Assembly (NCBI RefSeq): GCF_000024025.1
Contig: NC_013131.1
Span: forward strand, 6,076,001 to 6,140,000
DNA from: Catenulispora acidiphila DSM 44928
GTDB taxonomy: Bacteria > Actinomycetota > Actinomycetes > Streptomycetales > Catenulisporaceae
Reading direction: 5' to 3'
Length of the DNA: 64,000 nucleotides
Position numbers and translations under genes: made by a program. Under the pieces are notes generated by a model, which saw only the letters and a list, made by a program, of their open reading frames with translations, was not told the origin of the DNA and did not search any database. Of the stretch, positions 43,446 through 51,245 are shown piece after piece. The first letter of the stretch is position 1, and the number at the start of each line of letters is the position of its first letter.

Positions 43446-44225
43446 GAAAACTGAGGAACCAAGAGCGCTGAGGGCACTGAAAACGCCGAGGGCGCTGAGA
43501 ACCTCCAGGACGTCGAAAACACTGAGAACGCCGAGGGCGCCGAGCACAGAGCGCTTCAGAGCACTGGCAGCCACGTCGGCGCCGTCCACTCGGACGGCGC
43601 CGACGGCGGCGAAAACACCCTGTCGGACCCCGCCAACCGCCGCAGCCCCTTCCTTGTCAGTGGTTTGACATCGGACCAGGCTGCGGAATCATTGTCCTGG
43701 CACCGCGTTCACGAGCTGCGTTTCCCACGGTCGCCAGGGCACCGGCGAGGACCGGCTGTCCGGCCGGTGCGGGTGATCGTCACGTCGGCACGATAGCCCT
43801 CGCCCCCATGACTGGTTACCTTGAACTGCACGAGTGCGGAGGCTGAGACGGGAGCGGAGGATGGTGCGGCAGGCGTCAGGAGTGTGGAGACGAGCGGAGT
43901 GCGGCCGCGGCCCGGTTTCGCTCGCTAGCACAATCTGCGCGCGCGTCCATCCCCCCGTCGGCTTCCGTCATCAGGGCAATGCCACGATCCGTAGGCACAT
44001 TTCCCAGATCTGTGCCCGACGATCGCACGATCGGGGGCACAAGCTATCGCCGAGGCCGGTCCGGGGCACAACCTCCGTGGCCGGGCCGCAGGTGAGACGG
44101 CCACTCGACCGGGCGGAGGCGCCGCGCCGGATGGGGCAAACGACGGCGCGCGGTGAGGATGTGTCGGCATGATTGTGTCTGGGCCCCCGCCGGGGTCCGC
44201 ACGGACCACCCACAGGACGGCGGGA
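43446..44225. other. Gene-free stretch with 9-bp periodic repeat
   Basis: From about 43441 to 43555 the sequence repeats with a 9-bp period (GCGCTGAGG, GCACTGAAA, ACGCCGAGG, GCGCTGAGA and so on), starting at the end of the preceding gene. The remaining ~600 bp show no supported gene. Open frames on both strands lack ribosome-binding sites and family resemblance. AT content rises at 43970-44050, where the promoter of the SpoIIE-type gene may lie. Confidence 0.55.
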
Positions 44226-47084
44226 ATGGCGTCGGCGTTCGACCTCTCCGGTTTCTCGGTCACCGACATGGTCGTCGCCTCCGGCGAGCTCCGGGCCGTC
44301 ACCGCCGGAGCCGCCTCCATGGAGGAGGGCTCGGCGGCGATCGTCGAGTGGCTGCGGCACGCCTTCACCGACCCGGCGACCGGCCGCCCGGCCTTCGCGC
44401 TGGCCCGGATGTTCCACACTGTCACCTGGGACCGGCTGACCCCGGACCTGCGCTCCTATGTCGGCACCCGGGATCCGGCGGCGGCCGCGAACGACGACGG
44501 CCTGCCGTATCTGACGCTGCTGGCCACCTCCGGGGACCATCCGCACTGGTCGGACCGCCGCAACAGCCGCGACCACCAGGCGATCCCGCTGTCCGCCTCG
44601 GACGTGGTGCGGCGCGCGCCGCTCGCGCTTGCGCTGCTGGACCGGCTGCTGGGCTTGCAGCCCTCGCCGGAGCCGGTGCCGGCGCGGCCGCACGGCGGCG
44701 AGTCGCCGGCCGCCTCGGCGCGGCTGCGGGACCGGTTCGACGTCTTCCACGTGCCCGAAGCCCTCGGCAGCCCGTATGTGCCGACCCCTGAGTTCGTCCG
44801 CGACTATCAGATCCGCTCGGCGATCGCGCTGGGCGCGGTGCTGGACTCCGGCGGGCCGGACCACCCGGACCTGCCCGGGGTGCGGAACACCTCGCTGTAC
44901 ACGGCGCTGCTGTATTCGCGCGTCCGCATCCCGGCCGAGACCGCGACGCACTTCCGGACGCTGGCCGCGGCGATCCGGCTGGCGCTGACCCCGCTGCTGG
45001 CCGTGCCCTTGTTCGCGCCCTCGTCCCCGGCGGCGGGGCACCAGGTGTTCGGCGCCCGCAACGGGAACGGCTCGGGGACCGGCCTCGGCAACGGCGTGGC
45101 CGGGGCGCCGACCGGGAACGGCGCGCCGCCGGCCGCCGGCTCCGCGCCCGCGGGGAACGGCGCGGCCGGCAACGGCGCCGCCGGGAACGGGCACCGGCCG
45201 TCGGTGAACCTGGTCCCGCAGCAGGCCTCGGCGCCGCCTCCGTCGTCCTCCTCGGTCCCGGCCGCCGCCGGCGACGGCAACGCTGCGGCGCTGGCCGCCG
45301 AAGCCGAGCTGCGCGCCTCGCAGCGGCGGCTGACGCAGGAGACCCGGATCGTCGAGACGCTCTACATGATCGGGCAGTCTCTGCACCGGGAGCTGGACAC
45401 CCGCAAGATCGCCAAGCTCGCCACGGACGCCGCGACCACCGCGATCGACGCCGAGTTCGGGTCCTGCTTCTACACCCTGACCTCCGCCAACGGCCAGGCG
45501 CAGACCCGGTTCGCGCTGGCCGGGACGGTCCCGGCGGAGCGCTTCGAGAACCTGCCGATGCCGCGGCCGACCTCGCTGGTGGGCGCGGCGTTCCCCGGGA
45601 CCGCGCCGATCCGCTCCGGCGACGTCACCGCCGACCCGCGCTACGGCCAGCGCGCGCCGTTCCACGGCCTGCCGCCGGGACACCCGCCGGTGAAGTCCTT
45701 CCTGGCGCTGCCGATCACCACGATCGGCGGCACGGTGCTGGGCTCGATGTACTTCGGCCACTCCGAACCGAACCGGTTCACCGAGCGCGACGAGCAGATC
45801 GTTAAGGGCATCGCCGGGCAGGCGGCCTCGGCGATGGACAACGCGCGGCTGTACCGGCTGGAGCGCGAGACCGCGGTGGAGCTGCAGAACTCGCTGCTGC
45901 CGGCGTCCCCGCCGCAGCTGGCGGAGCTGGAGATCGCCTTCACCTACCTGGCCGGCGCGCAGGGCACGCAGGTCGGCGGCGACTGGTTCGACGTGATCCC
46001 GCTGTCCGGCGGCCGGGTGGCGCTGGTCATCGGGGACGTGATGGGGCGCGGGATCCGGGCCGCGGCGATCATGGGGCAGCTGCGGACGGCGGTGCGCGCG
46101 TACGCGGTGATGGACCTGCCGCCGGGGCAGATCATGCATCTGCTGAACCGGCTGGTGTGCACCATGCCGGCCTCGGCGGCGAGCAGCTCGGTGGCGGTGA
46201 CCACGCTGAGCGCCTCCGGGACGTACCCGGTCGGCACCGGGGCGCTGGGACCGGCCGACGACGGCGTCGCCGAGCAGATCGCGACGTGCGTGTACGCCGT
46301 CTACGACCCGGCGGAGGAGGTCCTGACCTGGGCCAGCGCCGGGCACATGCCGCCGGCGCTGATCACCCCGGAGGGCACGGCGCACCTGCTGGAGGACGAC
46401 CTCGGGATGCCGCTGGGCATCGAGGAGGCGGTGTTCGACGAGAAGGTGCAGACCCTGGCCGGCGGCAGCAGGCTGCTGCTGTACACCGACGGCCTGGTGG
46501 AGTGCCACGACGCGCCGCTGACCGAGCGGCTGAACCGGCTCTCCACGGAGCTGGTCCGCTCCGACGACGGACCGCTGGGTTCCTCCGGACCGCTGAGCTC
46601 GGAGAGCGTGCAGCGCACCTGCGACCGCCTGCTGCACGCGATGCTCTCCGGCGACGAGCACGACGACGTGGCGCTGCTGATGGTGCGGACCCGCCCGACC
46701 CGCATCCGCAAGGCGGCGCTGGACCTGGACCCGGACCCGATGGCGGCGCGCGCCGCGCGGCGGTTCGTCACCGCGACGCTGAGCGAGTGGGACCTGGACC
46801 ACCTGACCGACGACGTGCTCTCGGTGGTCACCGAGCTGGTCACCAACGCCACCCAGCACGCCGCGACGACCAGCCAGCTGGCGCTGCGCTCGCATCCGGG
46901 GCGGCTGATGGTCGAGGTCGCCGACTGCGACGGCCGCATCCCGCGCCCGGCGGTGACGCAGCACATGGACGAGCGGCATCGCGGCCTGCTGATAGTCGCG
47001 CAGCTGTCGCAGCGGTGGGGCGTGCGGCCGACGGACCGCGGGAAGATCGTGTGGGCCGAGATGGGCGAGTCCGCTGGGGAGTAG
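44226..47084 (+). CDS. GAF-SpoIIE phosphatase-HATPase switch protein
   Basis: A 952-residue cytoplasmic signalling protein. Residues 1-~270 form an unassigned N-terminal domain opening with FDLSGFSVTDMVVASGEL. A Gly/Asn/Ala-rich linker follows, then a GAF domain (~360-540), a PP2C/SpoIIE Ser phosphatase (GGDWFDVIPL, VIGDVMGRG, YTDGLVE, DDVALLMV; ~560-805) and a C-terminal GHKL kinase of RsbW type (VVTELVTNATQHA; ~810-950). It probably both phosphorylates and dephosphorylates STAS proteins such as the one at 20537. An in-frame ATG at 44169 would add 19 residues; 44226 is preferred because it directly precedes the conserved opening. Confidence 0.88.
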   Translation: MASAFDLSGFSVTDMVVASGELRAVTAGAASMEEGSAAIVEWLRHAFTDPATGRPAFALARMFHTVTWDRLTPDLRSYVGTRDPAAAANDDGLPYLTLLATSGDHPHWSDRRNSRDHQAIPLSASDVVRRAPLALALLDRLLGLQPSPEPVPARPHGGESPAASARLRDRFDVFHVPEALGSPYVPTPEFVRDYQIRSAIALGAVLDSGGPDHPDLPGVRNTSLYTALLYSRVRIPAETATHFRTLAAAIRLALTPLLAVPLFAPSSPAAGHQVFGARNGNGSGTGLGNGVAGAPTGNGAPPAAGSAPAGNGAAGNGAAGNGHRPSVNLVPQQASAPPPSSSSVPAAAGDGNAAALAAEAELRASQRRLTQETRIVETLYMIGQSLHRELDTRKIAKLATDAATTAIDAEFGSCFYTLTSANGQAQTRFALAGTVPAERFENLPMPRPTSLVGAAFPGTAPIRSGDVTADPRYGQRAPFHGLPPGHPPVKSFLALPITTIGGTVLGSMYFGHSEPNRFTERDEQIVKGIAGQAASAMDNARLYRLERETAVELQNSLLPASPPQLAELEIAFTYLAGAQGTQVGGDWFDVIPLSGGRVALVIGDVMGRGIRAAAIMGQLRTAVRAYAVMDLPPGQIMHLLNRLVCTMPASAASSSVAVTTLSASGTYPVGTGALGPADDGVAEQIATCVYAVYDPAEEVLTWASAGHMPPALITPEGTAHLLEDDLGMPLGIEEAVFDEKVQTLAGGSRLLLYTDGLVECHDAPLTERLNRLSTELVRSDDGPLGSSGPLSSESVQRTCDRLLHAMLSGDEHDDVALLMVRTRPTRIRKAALDLDPDPMAARAARRFVTATLSEWDLDHLTDDVLSVVTELVTNATQHAATTSQLALRSHPGRLMVEVADCDGRIPRPAVTQHMDERHRGLLIVAQLSQRWGVRPTDRGKIVWAEMGESAGE

Positions 47085-47427
47085 GGCTGCGGGAGGGCGA
47101 GGGATGGCTTCGGCGGTGCCGGCGGTGTCGGCGACAGCGGTGACATAGGTGGCGGCGACGGTATCGGCAGCAGCGGCGGTATCGGCGACAGCGGCGGTAT
47201 CGGCGACAGCGGCAGCGGCAGCAGCGGCGGTGCCGGTGACATCGGCGACAGCGGCGGCGGAGGTGCCGACGGCGGCGGAGGAGGCGGAGGAGGCGGCGGA
47301 GGTGGCGGCGGAGGCGGCGGAGGTGGCGGCGGAGGAGGTGGCGGCGGCGGAGGAGGTGGCGGCCGCGGCGGCGAAGGTGCCAGTGGCGGTGGCGGTATCG
47401 GTGACATCGGCGATGCCGGCGCTTTCG
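47085..47427. repeat. GC-rich microsatellite upstream of the Cas3-like gene
   Basis: An 18-bp unit (GGCGGTATCGGCGACAGC and variants) at 47105-47265 passes into an uninterrupted GGC/GGA trinucleotide tract at ~47270-47365. The downstream frame is open through it, giving an Ala/Glu-rich run from a GTG near 47149. The other + frame gives poly-Gly and the complementary strand poly-Pro. It is better read as repeat DNA than as protein, but in-frame translation cannot be excluded. Confidence 0.7.
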
Positions 47428-49113
47428 GTGACATCGGTGTTCGAGGATTTCGTGCGTGTCGCCACCGGTCACCAGCCGTCTGCTGCTCAGATGAGGCTCG
47501 CTGCGGATGGGTTGCCGGAGGTCGTCGAGATCGCCGCGGGCACTGCCGGCGAGGAGCGGGTCGAGACCGCCGTGTTGCCGTGGCTCCATCGGCGGATGGT
47601 CTCGGCGCCGGAAGCCACGCCGAGGCGGCTGGTCTACGTCGTGCCGATGCATGGTCCCGTCGAGGAGGTGTTCGCGCGGATCGGTGAGTGGCTGGCGCGG
47701 CTTGGGCTCGCCGAGGACGTCGGTCTGCATCTGGTCGCTGGCGCGGCTCCGGGCAGCGGGTGGCAGCGTCGGCCGGAGGAGTCCGCGATTCTGGTCGGGA
47801 CGCCGGACCTGTTGCTGAGCAAGGCGCTCATGCGCGGGTTCGGCGACTCGGCGCAGAACGCTCCGGTGTCGTTCGGGCTGCTGAACAACGGTGTGCAGTG
47901 GGTCTTCGAGGACGCGCGGCGGCTCGGTCCCGGGTTGGCGACGAGCGTCGAGCTGCAACGGCTGCGTGATCTGCTGGGGACGGCGGCGCCTGCTCGCAGC
48001 ACCTGGTTGTCCGATGCCCCGCATCTGCTTGAGACGGCCGGCGCGACTGTCCCGAGGTTGGATCGGGACGCTCTGCGCACGCTGTTCGACACCACCGTCG
48101 AGCCGAGCGGTGTCGGCGTTGCGCGCCTGGTCTGCGACCAGGCCGACTGGACCGTGCAGATCGCGCGGCGCAACTGGGAGTCCACGCCGTCCGAGGAGGA
48201 GCCCCGTCTACGCGGGGACGAGCTCCGCCGTGTGCCGCTCGCCGACGTGCGGCAGATGCTCGGCGCGGGGATGTGGTTCTGGATCCGGGACCGGCTGGAC
48301 GGTGCGTGGCGGCACGCGGTCGCCGAGGACCTCACGCCCGGCGTCACACTGGTGCGGCACGACCCCGAGGCCGGACCGGCGCAGGACGCCGCGCCGTGGG
48401 CGTTCGCCTGCACCGCGTGGGTCAGTCTCGACCAGCACCTGATGGAGACCGAGGAGGAGGCGCGCGACCTCCTGGACTCGCTGCCCGGACTGCTGGCGGA
48501 CCAGCAGGAGGCTGTCAGGCTGGCGGCGCGCTATCACGATCTCGGCAAGTGCCACGACGTATTCCAGGAGATGTTGCGAGGTGGTGGCGGCGATCCGCCC
48601 GACTACCTGCTGGCCAAGTCGAAGGCGCCATTCAGCACCGGTCAGAGGAGAAGGGCGTACTTCCGGCATGAACTCGTCAGCGCGCTGATCTTGATGGAGG
48701 GCGGCCATCCCTGGCTGACGACCTACCTCGTCGCCGCGCACCACGGGCACGTGCGCGTCTCGGTGCGGCCGGGGCGGGACGAGGCACCGCTCATCCTGGG
48801 TGTCCTCGACGGGGATCAGATTCCGCCGATCGAGTTGTCGACCGGTGAGCGCTTCCCCGCGCAGCGCCTTCAGACCACGGACATCGAGCCTGGCGGAGGG
48901 TGGACGGAGCGAGTGCTGGCGCTGGTGGACCGCGAAGATCTCGGACCCTTCAGGCTCGCCTACCTCGAGACGCTGGTCCGCGTATCCGACTGGCGGTCCA
49001 GCGCGCGCCATGACGGTCCGGTCGAAGCGCTCGCGCCCGCGCTGCCCGCGACCCCGGCCGCGCTCAGTCCCGAGGCTGCTTCTTCTCCGTCGGCAGCGGC
49101 GCTCCCCCGCTGA
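47428..49113 (+). CDS. Orphan Cas3-like protein: helicase-dead, HD nuclease retained (type I-G related)
   Basis: A 561-residue protein aligning in order with Cas3 of type I-G (I-U) CRISPR systems, whose HD domain is C-terminal. The opening FEDFVRVATGHQP, then SAILVGTPDLLLSKALMRGF and FGLLNNGVQWVFED match RecA1. The ATPase residues are gone: Walker A reads AAGTAGEE (36-43), the DEVQ-type box reads EDAR (161-164) and SAT reads SDA (195-197). RecA2 is missing: the text jumps at ~197-208 to the post-helicase linker (LRTLFDTTVEPSG). The HD set is kept: H337, H370-D371 (HDLGK), H414 (RHE), H438-H439 (AHHG), D521. The start is GTG 47428 with no clear RBS. No cas genes adjoin it. Confidence 0.72.
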   Translation: MTSVFEDFVRVATGHQPSAAQMRLAADGLPEVVEIAAGTAGEERVETAVLPWLHRRMVSAPEATPRRLVYVVPMHGPVEEVFARIGEWLARLGLAEDVGLHLVAGAAPGSGWQRRPEESAILVGTPDLLLSKALMRGFGDSAQNAPVSFGLLNNGVQWVFEDARRLGPGLATSVELQRLRDLLGTAAPARSTWLSDAPHLLETAGATVPRLDRDALRTLFDTTVEPSGVGVARLVCDQADWTVQIARRNWESTPSEEEPRLRGDELRRVPLADVRQMLGAGMWFWIRDRLDGAWRHAVAEDLTPGVTLVRHDPEAGPAQDAAPWAFACTAWVSLDQHLMETEEEARDLLDSLPGLLADQQEAVRLAARYHDLGKCHDVFQEMLRGGGGDPPDYLLAKSKAPFSTGQRRRAYFRHELVSALILMEGGHPWLTTYLVAAHHGHVRVSVRPGRDEAPLILGVLDGDQIPPIELSTGERFPAQRLQTTDIEPGGGWTERVLALVDREDLGPFRLAYLETLVRVSDWRSSARHDGPVEALAPALPATPAALSPEAASSPSAAALPR

Positions 49114-49304: not shown

Positions 49305-51245
49305 CTACAGCAGCGGCCGCAGCGCCTCGCGGACGCGCCGCTCGACCACGGCGAGCGCCAGGTTCGCGTCCTCGCGGGCGAACGGCGAGCCCTCGCGGTC
49401 CACGAGCGGGCCGCGCGCGCCGGAGCCGGCGGCGACGCCGAGTTCGCGCAGCGAGGTGCGGGCGCCGTCGGCGGCCGGGAGTCCGCCGGCGGCGGCGCGG
49501 TCCAGGACGGCGCGGCGATGGCGCCAGCGCCAGGGGTCCGCGGCGGCGCTCGCGGCGGAGCGCGGGGCGGCGAACAGCAGGCGCGGGACGGTCGCGGCGG
49601 CGTGCCAGCCCTCGACGAGCGCTGCCGGGACGCCCAGGCCCGGCAGGCGGTCCACGCCGCGGTAGGCGGCGGCGACCGGCTCCAGGACCAGGCCGTGGAT
49701 CTCGATCAAGGCCAAGCCCGGGGCGGCGGAGGCGGACAGGTAGACGGTCACCACGGTCTCGGCCGGGTCGGCCAGGATGCGGAAGCGGCGGAAGACGCGG
49801 GGCGCGGCGGCGTTGCGGGGCGAGGGCAGCAGGCGCAGGGAGGCATCCGTGGTCTGGCCGACGGCCAGGACCGGGCCGGTGGCGACCACGAAGTCGTCCC
49901 ACGCCACCTTGTCGAGCAGACCCTCCGGGCCCAGGCCGGGGACGCCCGCGGCCAGCGCGTCGGTCACGCGCTCGATGAGGTCCTCGACGTCCAGGCGGAT
50001 CGGGCCGGTCTCCAGAAGCCAGCGGCGGCGCAGGACCTGGCGGCCGGCGCCGGCGAAGGGGCGTGCGGGGTCGGCGAGGACCTGGCGGTCGGAGGCGACG
50101 CGCGCGGCGAGTTCGGCCAGGGCGCGGCGGGCCCAGACGGTCTCGGTGGTGATCCAGCGGTGTGTGCCGAAGCGGTCCCGGCGCAGCTTGTCCACCAGCA
50201 CATGCCGGGCTGCGAGGCGTTCGGCCAGGACGATGAGCCACGCCGTGAGCACGCCGGCCAGCGGGACGAACAGCCACGCCATCCACGGCGAGCCGGGTCC
50301 GGCGTCGTGGAAGCGGTCGGGGACGCCGAGGCCGAAGGGGTGCGCCAGTCCGGCGGCGGCGGCGATCGCACCGGCGCCCGCGACGCCCCACACGAGCGCC
50401 ACGAAGCGCGCCAGCGGGGCGAAGGACGCCGACGGCTGCTGCCCGTGCGCGGGGCTGGTCGGGGGCGGTCGCAGGCCGTCTCGGGGTCCTGCGACGGCCC
50501 AGTCGTCGGCGCCGCCGGAGTTCGCGCCCTGAGCGCCGCGGCCGGAACCGGAGCCGGTCACCAGCAGCCAGAGTCCGGCGCCCCACACCAGCCACGCCGC
50601 CACAGTCCACACCGACACCAGGAGCGCGACGACGGTCAGCGCCACGAGGGCGACGTCGCGGTGGAGCCGCCGGGTCCGGGCGGCGAGCGCGTGCCGGAGC
50701 ACCAGGACCTCGTCGACGCCGGTGGTCGGCGCCGGGGCGCGGCCTTCGTCGAAGACGAACTCCTTCAGGGCACGGCGGGTGAAGGCGGCGTCGAGGTGGG
50801 TCGCGGCGCACAGGTAGCGGGTCGCTTCGTCACCGGGAGCCGGGTCGGACCAGGTGGGGGTCACTGCCGGGCGGGGCCGTGGGGCGGCGCTGGGGACGGG
50901 CGCTTTCGCTGCGGATGAGGAGGAAGAGGCAGAGGCTGAGGCGGAGGGAGAGGCAGCGGTGGAGGCGGCAGCGGCGTAGTGGCTGACGCTCGGCGCGGGG
51001 TCGGCTTCGGGCGGCTGGCGAGTCTCGGCGGACTTGGCGCGTCCCGCTCCCCCGCCGAACAACACCTCACCGAGGATGTCGGAGGCGCGGCGTAACCGTC
51101 CGGCCTCGCCGGAGCGCGTTTCGGTCTCGCCGGGATCGGGCTCGCCGGACTGTTCCTCGCCGCCTTGAGCCCGGGCGGCCTGGAGATCGGCGTCCTCGTC
51201 CCCCGCAGACCCAGCATCGTCCGCCGCCCGGCCTGCCGCCTTCAA
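49305..51245 (-). CDS. Large membrane protein of unknown function
   Basis: A 646-residue protein. Residues 1-~130 are acidic and Ser/Ala-rich (probably disordered). A conserved-looking block TWSDPAPGDEATRYLCAATH at ~131-150 follows, then two or three hydrophobic segments near 200-235 and 290-350 (VALVALTVVALLVSVWTVAAW; WLFVPLAGVLTAWLIVLAE). A ~280-residue C-terminal soluble region (YLSASAAPGLALIEIHGLVLEP) ends the chain. No family is recognised. TTG 51243-51245 has GGGGAG 8 bp upstream; GTG 50864 would remove the acidic part. It is divergent from the GDPD gene. Confidence 0.65.
   Translation of the reverse strand: MKAAGRAADDAGSAGDEDADLQAARAQGGEEQSGEPDPGETETRSGEAGRLRRASDILGEVLFGGGAGRAKSAETRQPPEADPAPSVSHYAAAASTAASPSASASASSSSSAAKAPVPSAAPRPRPAVTPTWSDPAPGDEATRYLCAATHLDAAFTRRALKEFVFDEGRAPAPTTGVDEVLVLRHALAARTRRLHRDVALVALTVVALLVSVWTVAAWLVWGAGLWLLVTGSGSGRGAQGANSGGADDWAVAGPRDGLRPPPTSPAHGQQPSASFAPLARFVALVWGVAGAGAIAAAAGLAHPFGLGVPDRFHDAGPGSPWMAWLFVPLAGVLTAWLIVLAERLAARHVLVDKLRRDRFGTHRWITTETVWARRALAELAARVASDRQVLADPARPFAGAGRQVLRRRWLLETGPIRLDVEDLIERVTDALAAGVPGLGPEGLLDKVAWDDFVVATGPVLAVGQTTDASLRLLPSPRNAAAPRVFRRFRILADPAETVVTVYLSASAAPGLALIEIHGLVLEPVAAAYRGVDRLPGLGVPAALVEGWHAAATVPRLLFAAPRSAASAAADPWRWRHRRAVLDRAAAGGLPAADGARTSLRELGVAAGSGARGPLVDREGSPFAREDANLALAVVERRVREALRPLL

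Follow-up and report, generated by a model that had tools for sequence, protein, structure and literature searches.

A solitary type I-G cas3-like gene of Catenulispora acidiphila with a complete HD site and an erased helicase half

The gene and its remaining domains

Positions refer to the window, the whole stretch of 64,000 nucleotides of Catenulispora acidiphila DNA that was analyzed. It contains a cas3g-like gene, most of which lies in an inserted segment, between two flanking genes that are conserved at a site where this segment is absent (the empty site). The features of the locus, with the evidence on which their placement is based, are as follows:

44169..47084, forward strand: left flank, gene of a GAF-SpoIIE-HATPase phosphatase, conserved at the empty site
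47093..49059, forward strand: inserted segment, whose flanks lie 4 bases apart in Catenulispora G009, with no gene there
47097..47435, forward strand: GC-rich tract of tandem 9/18-bp repeats ahead of the gene start, within the inserted segment and absent from the empty site
47428..49113, forward strand: solitary cas3g-like gene, open frame of 561 codons (561 aa), GTG start, TGA stop
47440..48015, forward strand: RecA1 relic without ATPase motifs, residues ~5-196
47533..47556, forward strand: erased Walker A, AAGTAGEE, residues 36-43 (alignment with relatives and motif table)
47908..47919, forward strand: erased DExH box, EDAR, residues 161-164 (alignment with relatives and motif table)
48010..48018, forward strand: erased motif III, SDA, residues 195-197 (alignment with relatives and motif table)
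48016..48063, forward strand: junction at which all of RecA2 is absent (alignment with intact relatives of the range P0006-P0016)
48073..48405, forward strand: middle (linker) region conserved in Cas3g, starting LRTLFD (alignment with relatives)
48406..49020, forward strand: C-terminal HD domain, residues 327-531 (Pfam and NCBIfam matches, alignment and motif table)
49047..49113, forward strand: last ~20 codons of the frame, apparently native flank, also present in genomes without the gene
49305..51245, reverse strand: right flank, convergent gene with no Pfam match, conserved at the empty site

The start codon is supported by the relatives P0003-P0005, which begin at the same place (MTVGFEDFV or MTVGFEEFV). 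The protein matched the NCBIfam model of type I-G Cas3g (TIGR02621) in three stretches with an E-value of 4.8e-95, its 320.1 bits being below the cut-off of 400, and the PADLOC Cas3g model PDLC01770 with an E-value of 2.1e-128. Its HD part scored above the cut-offs of Pfam Cas3_HD (PF18019; residues 327-525 of 561, 34.3 against 23.1) and of the NCBIfam Cas3'' HD model TIGR01596 (49.9 against 43.45), and it also matched general HD and HDIG models below their cut-offs. The initial annotation, made from the letters alone, had described a continuous 561-codon frame that is collinear with type I-G Cas3 and carries the HD domain at its C-terminus; the TIGR02621, PADLOC and Pfam Cas3_HD matches agree with this.

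A protein search resulted in 688 relatives at an E-value of 1e-5 or better among 8000 scored candidates, and the best 120 of the 688 are the proteins named here with P numbers. When compared with the sequences of solved structures, the window protein (P0001) alone had no match at an E-value of 1, and the family profile matched Cas3 chains, 7tr8 best, through the helicase part, of which much is missing in P0001. In phylogenetic trees the window protein lies inside a clade of solitary genes that is nested among Cas3g proteins of CRISPR operons (root L038, L048, L074). A failure of structure comparison to place the protein with Cas3 had been named as an outcome that would speak against the first reading; at the level of sequence the placement holds. 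On these sequence comparisons the window gene is a type I-G Cas3 by descent, and its identity and anatomy as reported here are regarded as nearly certain.

Compared with Cas3g of type I-G (formerly I-U), RecA1, the middle region and the C-terminal HD domain are collinear. The HD site of the window protein is complete, with eight residues present (H337, H370, D371, K374, H414, H438, H439 and D521), and in the motif table those checked, including H438/H439 and D521, equal the residues of operon Cas3g. All of them except K374 had already been listed as kept in the initial annotation. Six HD residue groups were complete in 66 of the 67 proteins of the solitary clade, the exception being P0060, a truncated row.

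The differences from Cas3g concern the helicase half. Walker A reads PTGAGKT in intact relatives and AAGTAGEE in the window protein, in which the lysine and the threonine are thus replaced; the DExx-type box is EDAR, and motif III has changed from SAT or SST to SDA. RecA2, including motifs IV, V and VI, is missing between residues ~197 and 212. In the motif table (149 rows; P proteins shorter than 470 aa and 8 that duplicate loci were left out), Walker A, DExx, SAT and motif VI of a functional Cas3 helicase-nuclease are all missing in the window protein. The three replacements and the loss of the entire second helicase domain had been noticed before, and comparison with intact relatives confirmed them. 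Cas3'' proteins, the family modelled by TIGR01596, are HD nucleases whose polypeptide, like the window protein, carries no functional helicase. Cas3'' acts beside a separate Cas3' helicase and Cascade. The window protein, in contrast, retains a RecA1 relic, and no Cas8g was found in its host.

A clade of solitary genes and recurrent loss of the helicase

One scan of GTDB genomes, with the best 80 of 133 kept, resulted in 79 loci. Five queries for Csx17 (Cas8g), Csb1 and Csb2 were taken from two operons; the four that were compared with NCBIfam were confirmed, the fifth being the Csx17 of L074. None of the three genes could be identified in the fetched flanks of the 13 nearest loci (L018-L030), flanks which are unequal in length (only 589 bases upstream at L022, ~1.9 kb downstream at L020). 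In contrast, csx17 lies within the fetched stretch of 65 of the 66 more distant Cas3g loci (L031-L096), mostly directly downstream; the stretch of the remaining one, L037, stops at a contig edge. A genome-wide search for Cas8g gave matches in all four operon controls and in 0 of 22 genomes, the window genome among the latter. Of the 22, several of which are drafts, 14 carry a solitary gene and 8 are Catenulispora congeners, one of these (G005) with a remnant; 10 of them are Catenulispora (including the window genome G000 and G008) and 12 are the hosts of solitary loci other than L022. Csb1 had no match in the window genome in a search that had no positive control.

Within the window, no homologs of Csx17, Csb1 or Csb2 were found by tblastn, no CRISPR-like array by a crude scan and no Rfam match, and the earlier statement that cas partner genes and repeats are missing from the window could be upheld. 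The same scan identified no array in the 13 solitary loci, and of 7 operon loci it detected arrays in 4. The window gene thus differs from Cas3g of type I-G also in having no nearby cas8g, csb1, csb2 or array.

The solitary genes form one clade of 59 proteins with a long stem in the full-length tree of 82 rows (SH-aLRT 100). Eight further solitary proteins were left out of this tree, so that 8 of the 67 clade members are placed by similarity only. A tree of the HD columns alone, built from 56 chosen rows, agrees and contains 48 of the solitary proteins in a clade with support of 100/100. The surroundings in the genome were seen for 14 of the 59 members, including the window gene, and a solitary state is assumed for the rest. 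The window gene thus very probably belongs to a clade of solitary Cas3g genes in Actinobacteria.

Walker A, the DE pair and motif VI are all intact in 48 of the 67 clade members. The intact solitary loci of Kitasatospora, Streptomyces, Catellatospora and Virgisporangium (L018-L021, L023, L024, L026-L030) belong to the same clade and also have no partners in their fetched flanks, but they keep the helicase motifs that were checked, except for the Walker B glutamate of L030, whereas the window gene does not. In L030 (9995-12142, Virgisporangium), Walker A and motif VI are kept and the Walker B box reads DG instead of DE, possibly an early step of helicase loss.

Sixteen proteins of the clade, the window protein included, are helicase-dead; two of them (P0057 and P0114) are incomplete. 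P0002, which is 93% identical to the window protein, and P0003-P0005 (66-68%) have the same architecture without RecA2, and the deletion is therefore not restricted to this genome. P0009, P0011, P0012 (Catenulispora subtropica), P0015, P0022, P0023, P0057 and L022 (a C. pinisilvae protein, apparently also that of G008) lack Walker A, the DE pair and motif VI and keep part of RecA2; in P0057 (C. yoronensis) the N terminus is missing and Walker A is not assessable. A separate Streptacidiphilus group (P0055, which is L025, with P0058 and P0114) lacks Walker A and keeps the DE pair, and its motif VI is degraded; P0114 has no N terminus on which Walker A could be assessed, and motif VI of P0058 still passed a looser pattern. 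A second search, started from P0055, added no row without the DEAD-helicase Pfam among the best 120 of 233. The recurrence of the same motif losses in homologs had been proposed as a check of the first reading, and motif losses do recur among these relatives.

In the full-length tree, the 13 dead proteins of the Catenulispora group fall in one clade (96) and the three of the Streptacidiphilus group lie elsewhere. The HD-only tree implies three losses; a single origin was not rejected, either for all 16 (AU p 0.233) or for the 13 of the Catenulispora group (AU p 0.424). The trees are thus consistent with one to three origins of helicase loss. By the trees, departure from the CRISPR operon therefore preceded helicase loss, which took place inside the clade. 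This order, the recurrence of the losses, the solitary state of a whole clade and the single-gene insertion described below were beyond what the initial annotation had seen.

The host genome has a separate type I-E locus with Cas1e, Cas6e, Cas5e, Cas7e, Cse2, Cse1, a Cas3 of its own and an array-like repeat. That the window protein works in trans with such another CRISPR system of the cell, as an extra nuclease, would fit this locus and its repeat and the Cas1 match that was found in 6 of the 14 solitary-gene hosts. However, the other 8 hosts had no Cas1 match, a weak argument because the type I-G operon control G072 had none either, and the type I-E locus has its own Cas3, whose HD domain is on the N-terminal side and not C-terminal as in the window protein. 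Cooperation in trans is considered very unlikely. The type I-E locus lies at L098:4420-13655, and its Cas3 and Cse1 are found in one uninterrupted frame of 1650 codons, which is either a fusion or two genes.

Insertion and relocation of the gene

In Catenulispora G009, the sequence ending at 47092 and the sequence starting at 49060 are separated by 4 bases; by eye, the right edge of the inserted segment could be a few bases further left, near 49047. The inserted unit, consisting of the repeat tract and the gene, begins 8 bases past the stop codon of the GAF-SpoIIE phosphatase gene. In G005 both flanks of the window site are present 138 bases apart without the gene, in G006 both are present and diverged, and the contigs of G007 and G003 reach the right flank only. 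On these alignments, the window site is explained more simply by insertion than by loss, and the repeat tract, as judged from the empty site, is a part that arrived with, or after, the insertion. The tract is open in frame with cas3g from 47149 on. At a second site, the flanks of the Catellatospora locus L023 lie 55 bases apart in G063, whose own copy sits elsewhere; the insertion proposed for this site is read from this one empty genome.

When the 11 pairs of solitary loci that are more than 77% alike were compared, homology covered the gene, 2.07-2.35 kb, and almost nothing else, extending in some pairs ~70 bases upstream of the start. At the same limits, the operon pairs (n=2) shared 9.9 and 16.3 kb. 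The pair L026/L028 is an exception in which one further gene also matches. Furthermore, the gene or a remnant of it is found in unrelated flanks in three Catenulispora genomes (G000, G008 and G005). From these alignments, solitary Cas3g is a precise, relocating single-gene insertion, which is also how the window gene differs from Cas3g of type I-G operons.

In 8 of the 14 solitary loci (L020, L021, L023, L026-L030) the start codon is preceded, at a distance of 6-7 bases, by a TANNNT box, compared to 10 of 181 other called genes; the window gene does not have it. Such a box at this position is typical of leaderless actinobacterial genes, and it is probable that the box is a leaderless promoter that is carried along with the gene. 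By eye, neither terminal repeats nor a target-site duplication were obvious at the two pairs of filled and empty sites. Integration at tRNA genes was considered and rejected: the 13 loci hold 3 tRNA genes, and a single one, in L023 at 12431, is close to the solitary gene.

Three incomplete copies were also observed. A decayed remnant with two internal stops lies at a different site in Catenulispora G005 (G005:C47:46509-46760; L005, L100). In Kitasatospora aureofaciens, a second 5' copy that comprises the leader and the gene start (L026:4267-4339, by eye from ~4230) forms a broken duplicate ~5.7 kb from the full gene. In G062, a 5' cas3g fragment (G062:C47:9149-9375; L171) is 92-96% identical to Catellatospora copies, and a full copy is present elsewhere in the genome.

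It could be imagined that solitary Cas3g is a one-gene mobile unit derived from CRISPR, a cassette of ~2 kb that relocates between intergenic sites, perhaps by means of its own HD nuclease opening the target, that often carries its own promoter and that repeatedly sheds its helicase after the loss of Cascade. This extended reading is regarded as improbable.

The gene itself aside, no neighbor is conserved in more than 3 of the 14 solitary loci, and no Pfam family occurs in more than 4 of 88 neighbor proteins. Among the same 88 of the 123 called neighbor proteins, no PADLOC family was present in more than 2 (mad2 and mad3 in 2 each, mad6 and the PD-T4-6 models in 1), in a scan in which the loci were not told apart and 25 of 38 families were shown. 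No relative was confirmed in IMG/VR contigs and none was found in phage records; among plasmids, one match was obtained, on an Embleya megaplasmid, with 37.8% identity. The viral, phage and plasmid searches bear on the possibility that the protein is a Cas3 mimic that blocks or weakens the type I-G Cascade of others to the benefit of a mobile element. A helicase-dead Cas3g could conceivably occupy the Cas3 site and merely nick, and the gene does move between sites. However, the search of the 14 hosts turned up no Cas8g, and for viruses, phages and plasmids there is the single plasmid match with 37.8% identity. Such an interference factor is held to be highly improbable.

The gene is sporadic, with any match in 5 of 60 genomes, two of which are operon Cas3g. 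As it is absent from most relatives and decayed in G005, it is dispensable.

Selection and proposed function

The gene could be a decaying remnant, a laterally acquired Cas3g that has lost its partners and drifts, with a frame kept open as a survival artefact of high GC. Its sporadic presence, the loss of motif after motif, the decayed copy in G005 and the truncated 5' copies in L026 and G062 would agree with this, and the divergence of the relic can be used to examine it. In the dead groups the RecA1 distance was 1.17 (10 pairs), 1.09 (21 pairs) and 1.17 (1 pair) times the HD distance, and over 1128 intact pairs this ratio was 1.06, pairs being not independent in either set; P0056, P0057, P0060, P0061 and P0114 were left out as incomplete. 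When sorted by HD distance, intact pairs had a ratio of 1.26 at 0.1-0.2 and 1.18 at 0.2-0.3, compared to dead-group medians of 1.06, 1.12 and 1.17 and of 1.21 and 1.08, respectively. One close dead pair, P0012/P0015, reaches 2.45 and thereby exceeds the interquartile range of intact pairs (1.26-1.84), which would favor decay. On the other hand, the 93% identical proteins P0001 and P0002 differ by changes that are evenly spread (0.049 in RecA1 and 0.052 in HD).

The dN/dS ratios, obtained by simple counting over 5 pairs with partly saturated synonymous sites, were 0.49 for the relic, 0.48 for the middle region and 0.24 for HD between the window gene and C. pinisilvae, and 0.22-0.32 for RecA1, 0.37-0.98 for the middle region and 0.11-0.30 for HD in four intact pairs. 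The values of the window gene, 0.24-0.49, are below 1, as the first reading would predict. The raised ratio of the relic, which is in line with decay, indicates relaxation at some stage between the lineages of the window gene and C. pinisilvae. By these estimates, RecA1 and HD are under purifying selection, which is weak on the middle region, and on the whole a RecA1 without ATPase motifs appears to be held about as tightly as a working RecA1.

Against mere decay it also speaks that in the Catenulispora group all 13 dead proteins have frames of 539-695 codons and none has lost an HD residue group among those checked, and that relic and HD diverge within dead groups overall about as in intact ones. 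The retained HD residues may, however, reflect folding, because the HD mutant D625A of the T. sulfidiphilus Cas3 aggregates; passages on this mutant describe a loss of protection together with aggregation of the protein (PMC10482374). The initial annotation had left the choice between an orphan remnant and a neofunctionalised nuclease. Of these two, the neofunctionalised nuclease is better supported, by the recurrent losses, by dN/dS and by a RecA1 that keeps pace with HD, and a mere remnant is unlikely. That the window gene retains a function is considered probable on this sequence evidence.

What this function is can be stated with less confidence. The reading preferred here, given a chance that approaches but does not exceed an even one, is that of a stand-alone, CRISPR-independent and ATP-independent HD nuclease that would be kept by selection, most likely for accessory defence. 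The HD domain would be a metal-dependent, ATP-independent enzyme that cuts or nicks DNA, with single-stranded or branched molecules as the preferred substrate, and the RecA1 relic and the middle region would form a scaffold for DNA binding or folding. Without its motor, a processive shredder would become a local nickase, which may be tolerable because in type I-G it is the HD cut that matters most. The usual role would be accessory defence against phages or plasmids; this last step is proposed because the gene is patchy and mobile, and is founded on these two properties. Several observations count against the preferred reading: the gene is dispensable, the window copy does not have the promoter box, the neighbor proteins scanned have no defence family in common, and the viral and phage collections gave no confirmed relative.

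The closest experimental counterparts are the helicase mutants K39A and D164A of T. sulfidiphilus type I-G Cas3, which according to passages of two reports continue to bind their target DNA and to nick it (PMC9638904) and remain protective against phage P1 and, at full induction, against plasmid (PMC10482374). Like the window protein, they combine a dead ATPase with an intact HD site; unlike it, they are point mutants that act with Cascade, whereas the window protein has no RecA2 and no Cascade was found. The protection described there depends on Cascade (PMC10482374), and no Cas8g was found in the solitary-gene hosts searched. A Cas3g that only nicks is thus useful where it is brought to DNA by Cascade, which shows a route by which the helicase could become expendable. 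A passage of a review furthermore states that purified Cas3 anneals RNA into plasmid DNA in a reaction that needs the HD domain and not ATPase activity (PMC7074321).

HD domains are not confined to nucleases, and the superfamily fold is also found in nucleotide and cyclic-nucleotide phosphohydrolases. A conversion of the HD domain to such an enzyme, instead of a DNA nuclease, would be compatible with this and with the matches to general HD and HDIG models, which are below their cut-offs. However, the models that match the HD domain best are specific to Cas3, and those of its residues that were checked are as in operon Cas3g; little credence is given to a phosphohydrolase.

Among the open-access papers listed by the literature searches, none dealt with the solitary Cas3g clade. 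The term "orphan Cas3" concerns a mycobacterial false positive in the passage in which it occurs (PMC10333696), and solitary Cas3g is not described in the passages seen of papers on rare CRISPR variants and classification (PMC10910872, PMC12669027). A solitary, relocating Cas3g clade is therefore apparently undescribed. A clade outside the operon, with moves of single genes and with members that keep nothing but the nuclease site, provides a natural experiment on which half of the enzyme is needed by selection, and it makes testable whether a CRISPR-derived HD nuclease acts, and selects the DNA it acts on, in the absence of a guide complex. A new role is thereby suggested for an enzyme that normally shreds virus DNA in CRISPR immunity. 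For annotation, the clade carries a warning: many of these proteins are named in databases "CRISPR-associated endonuclease Cas3''" or "type I-G CRISPR-associated helicase/endonuclease Cas3g", yet their hosts, as far as searched, have no Cas8g.
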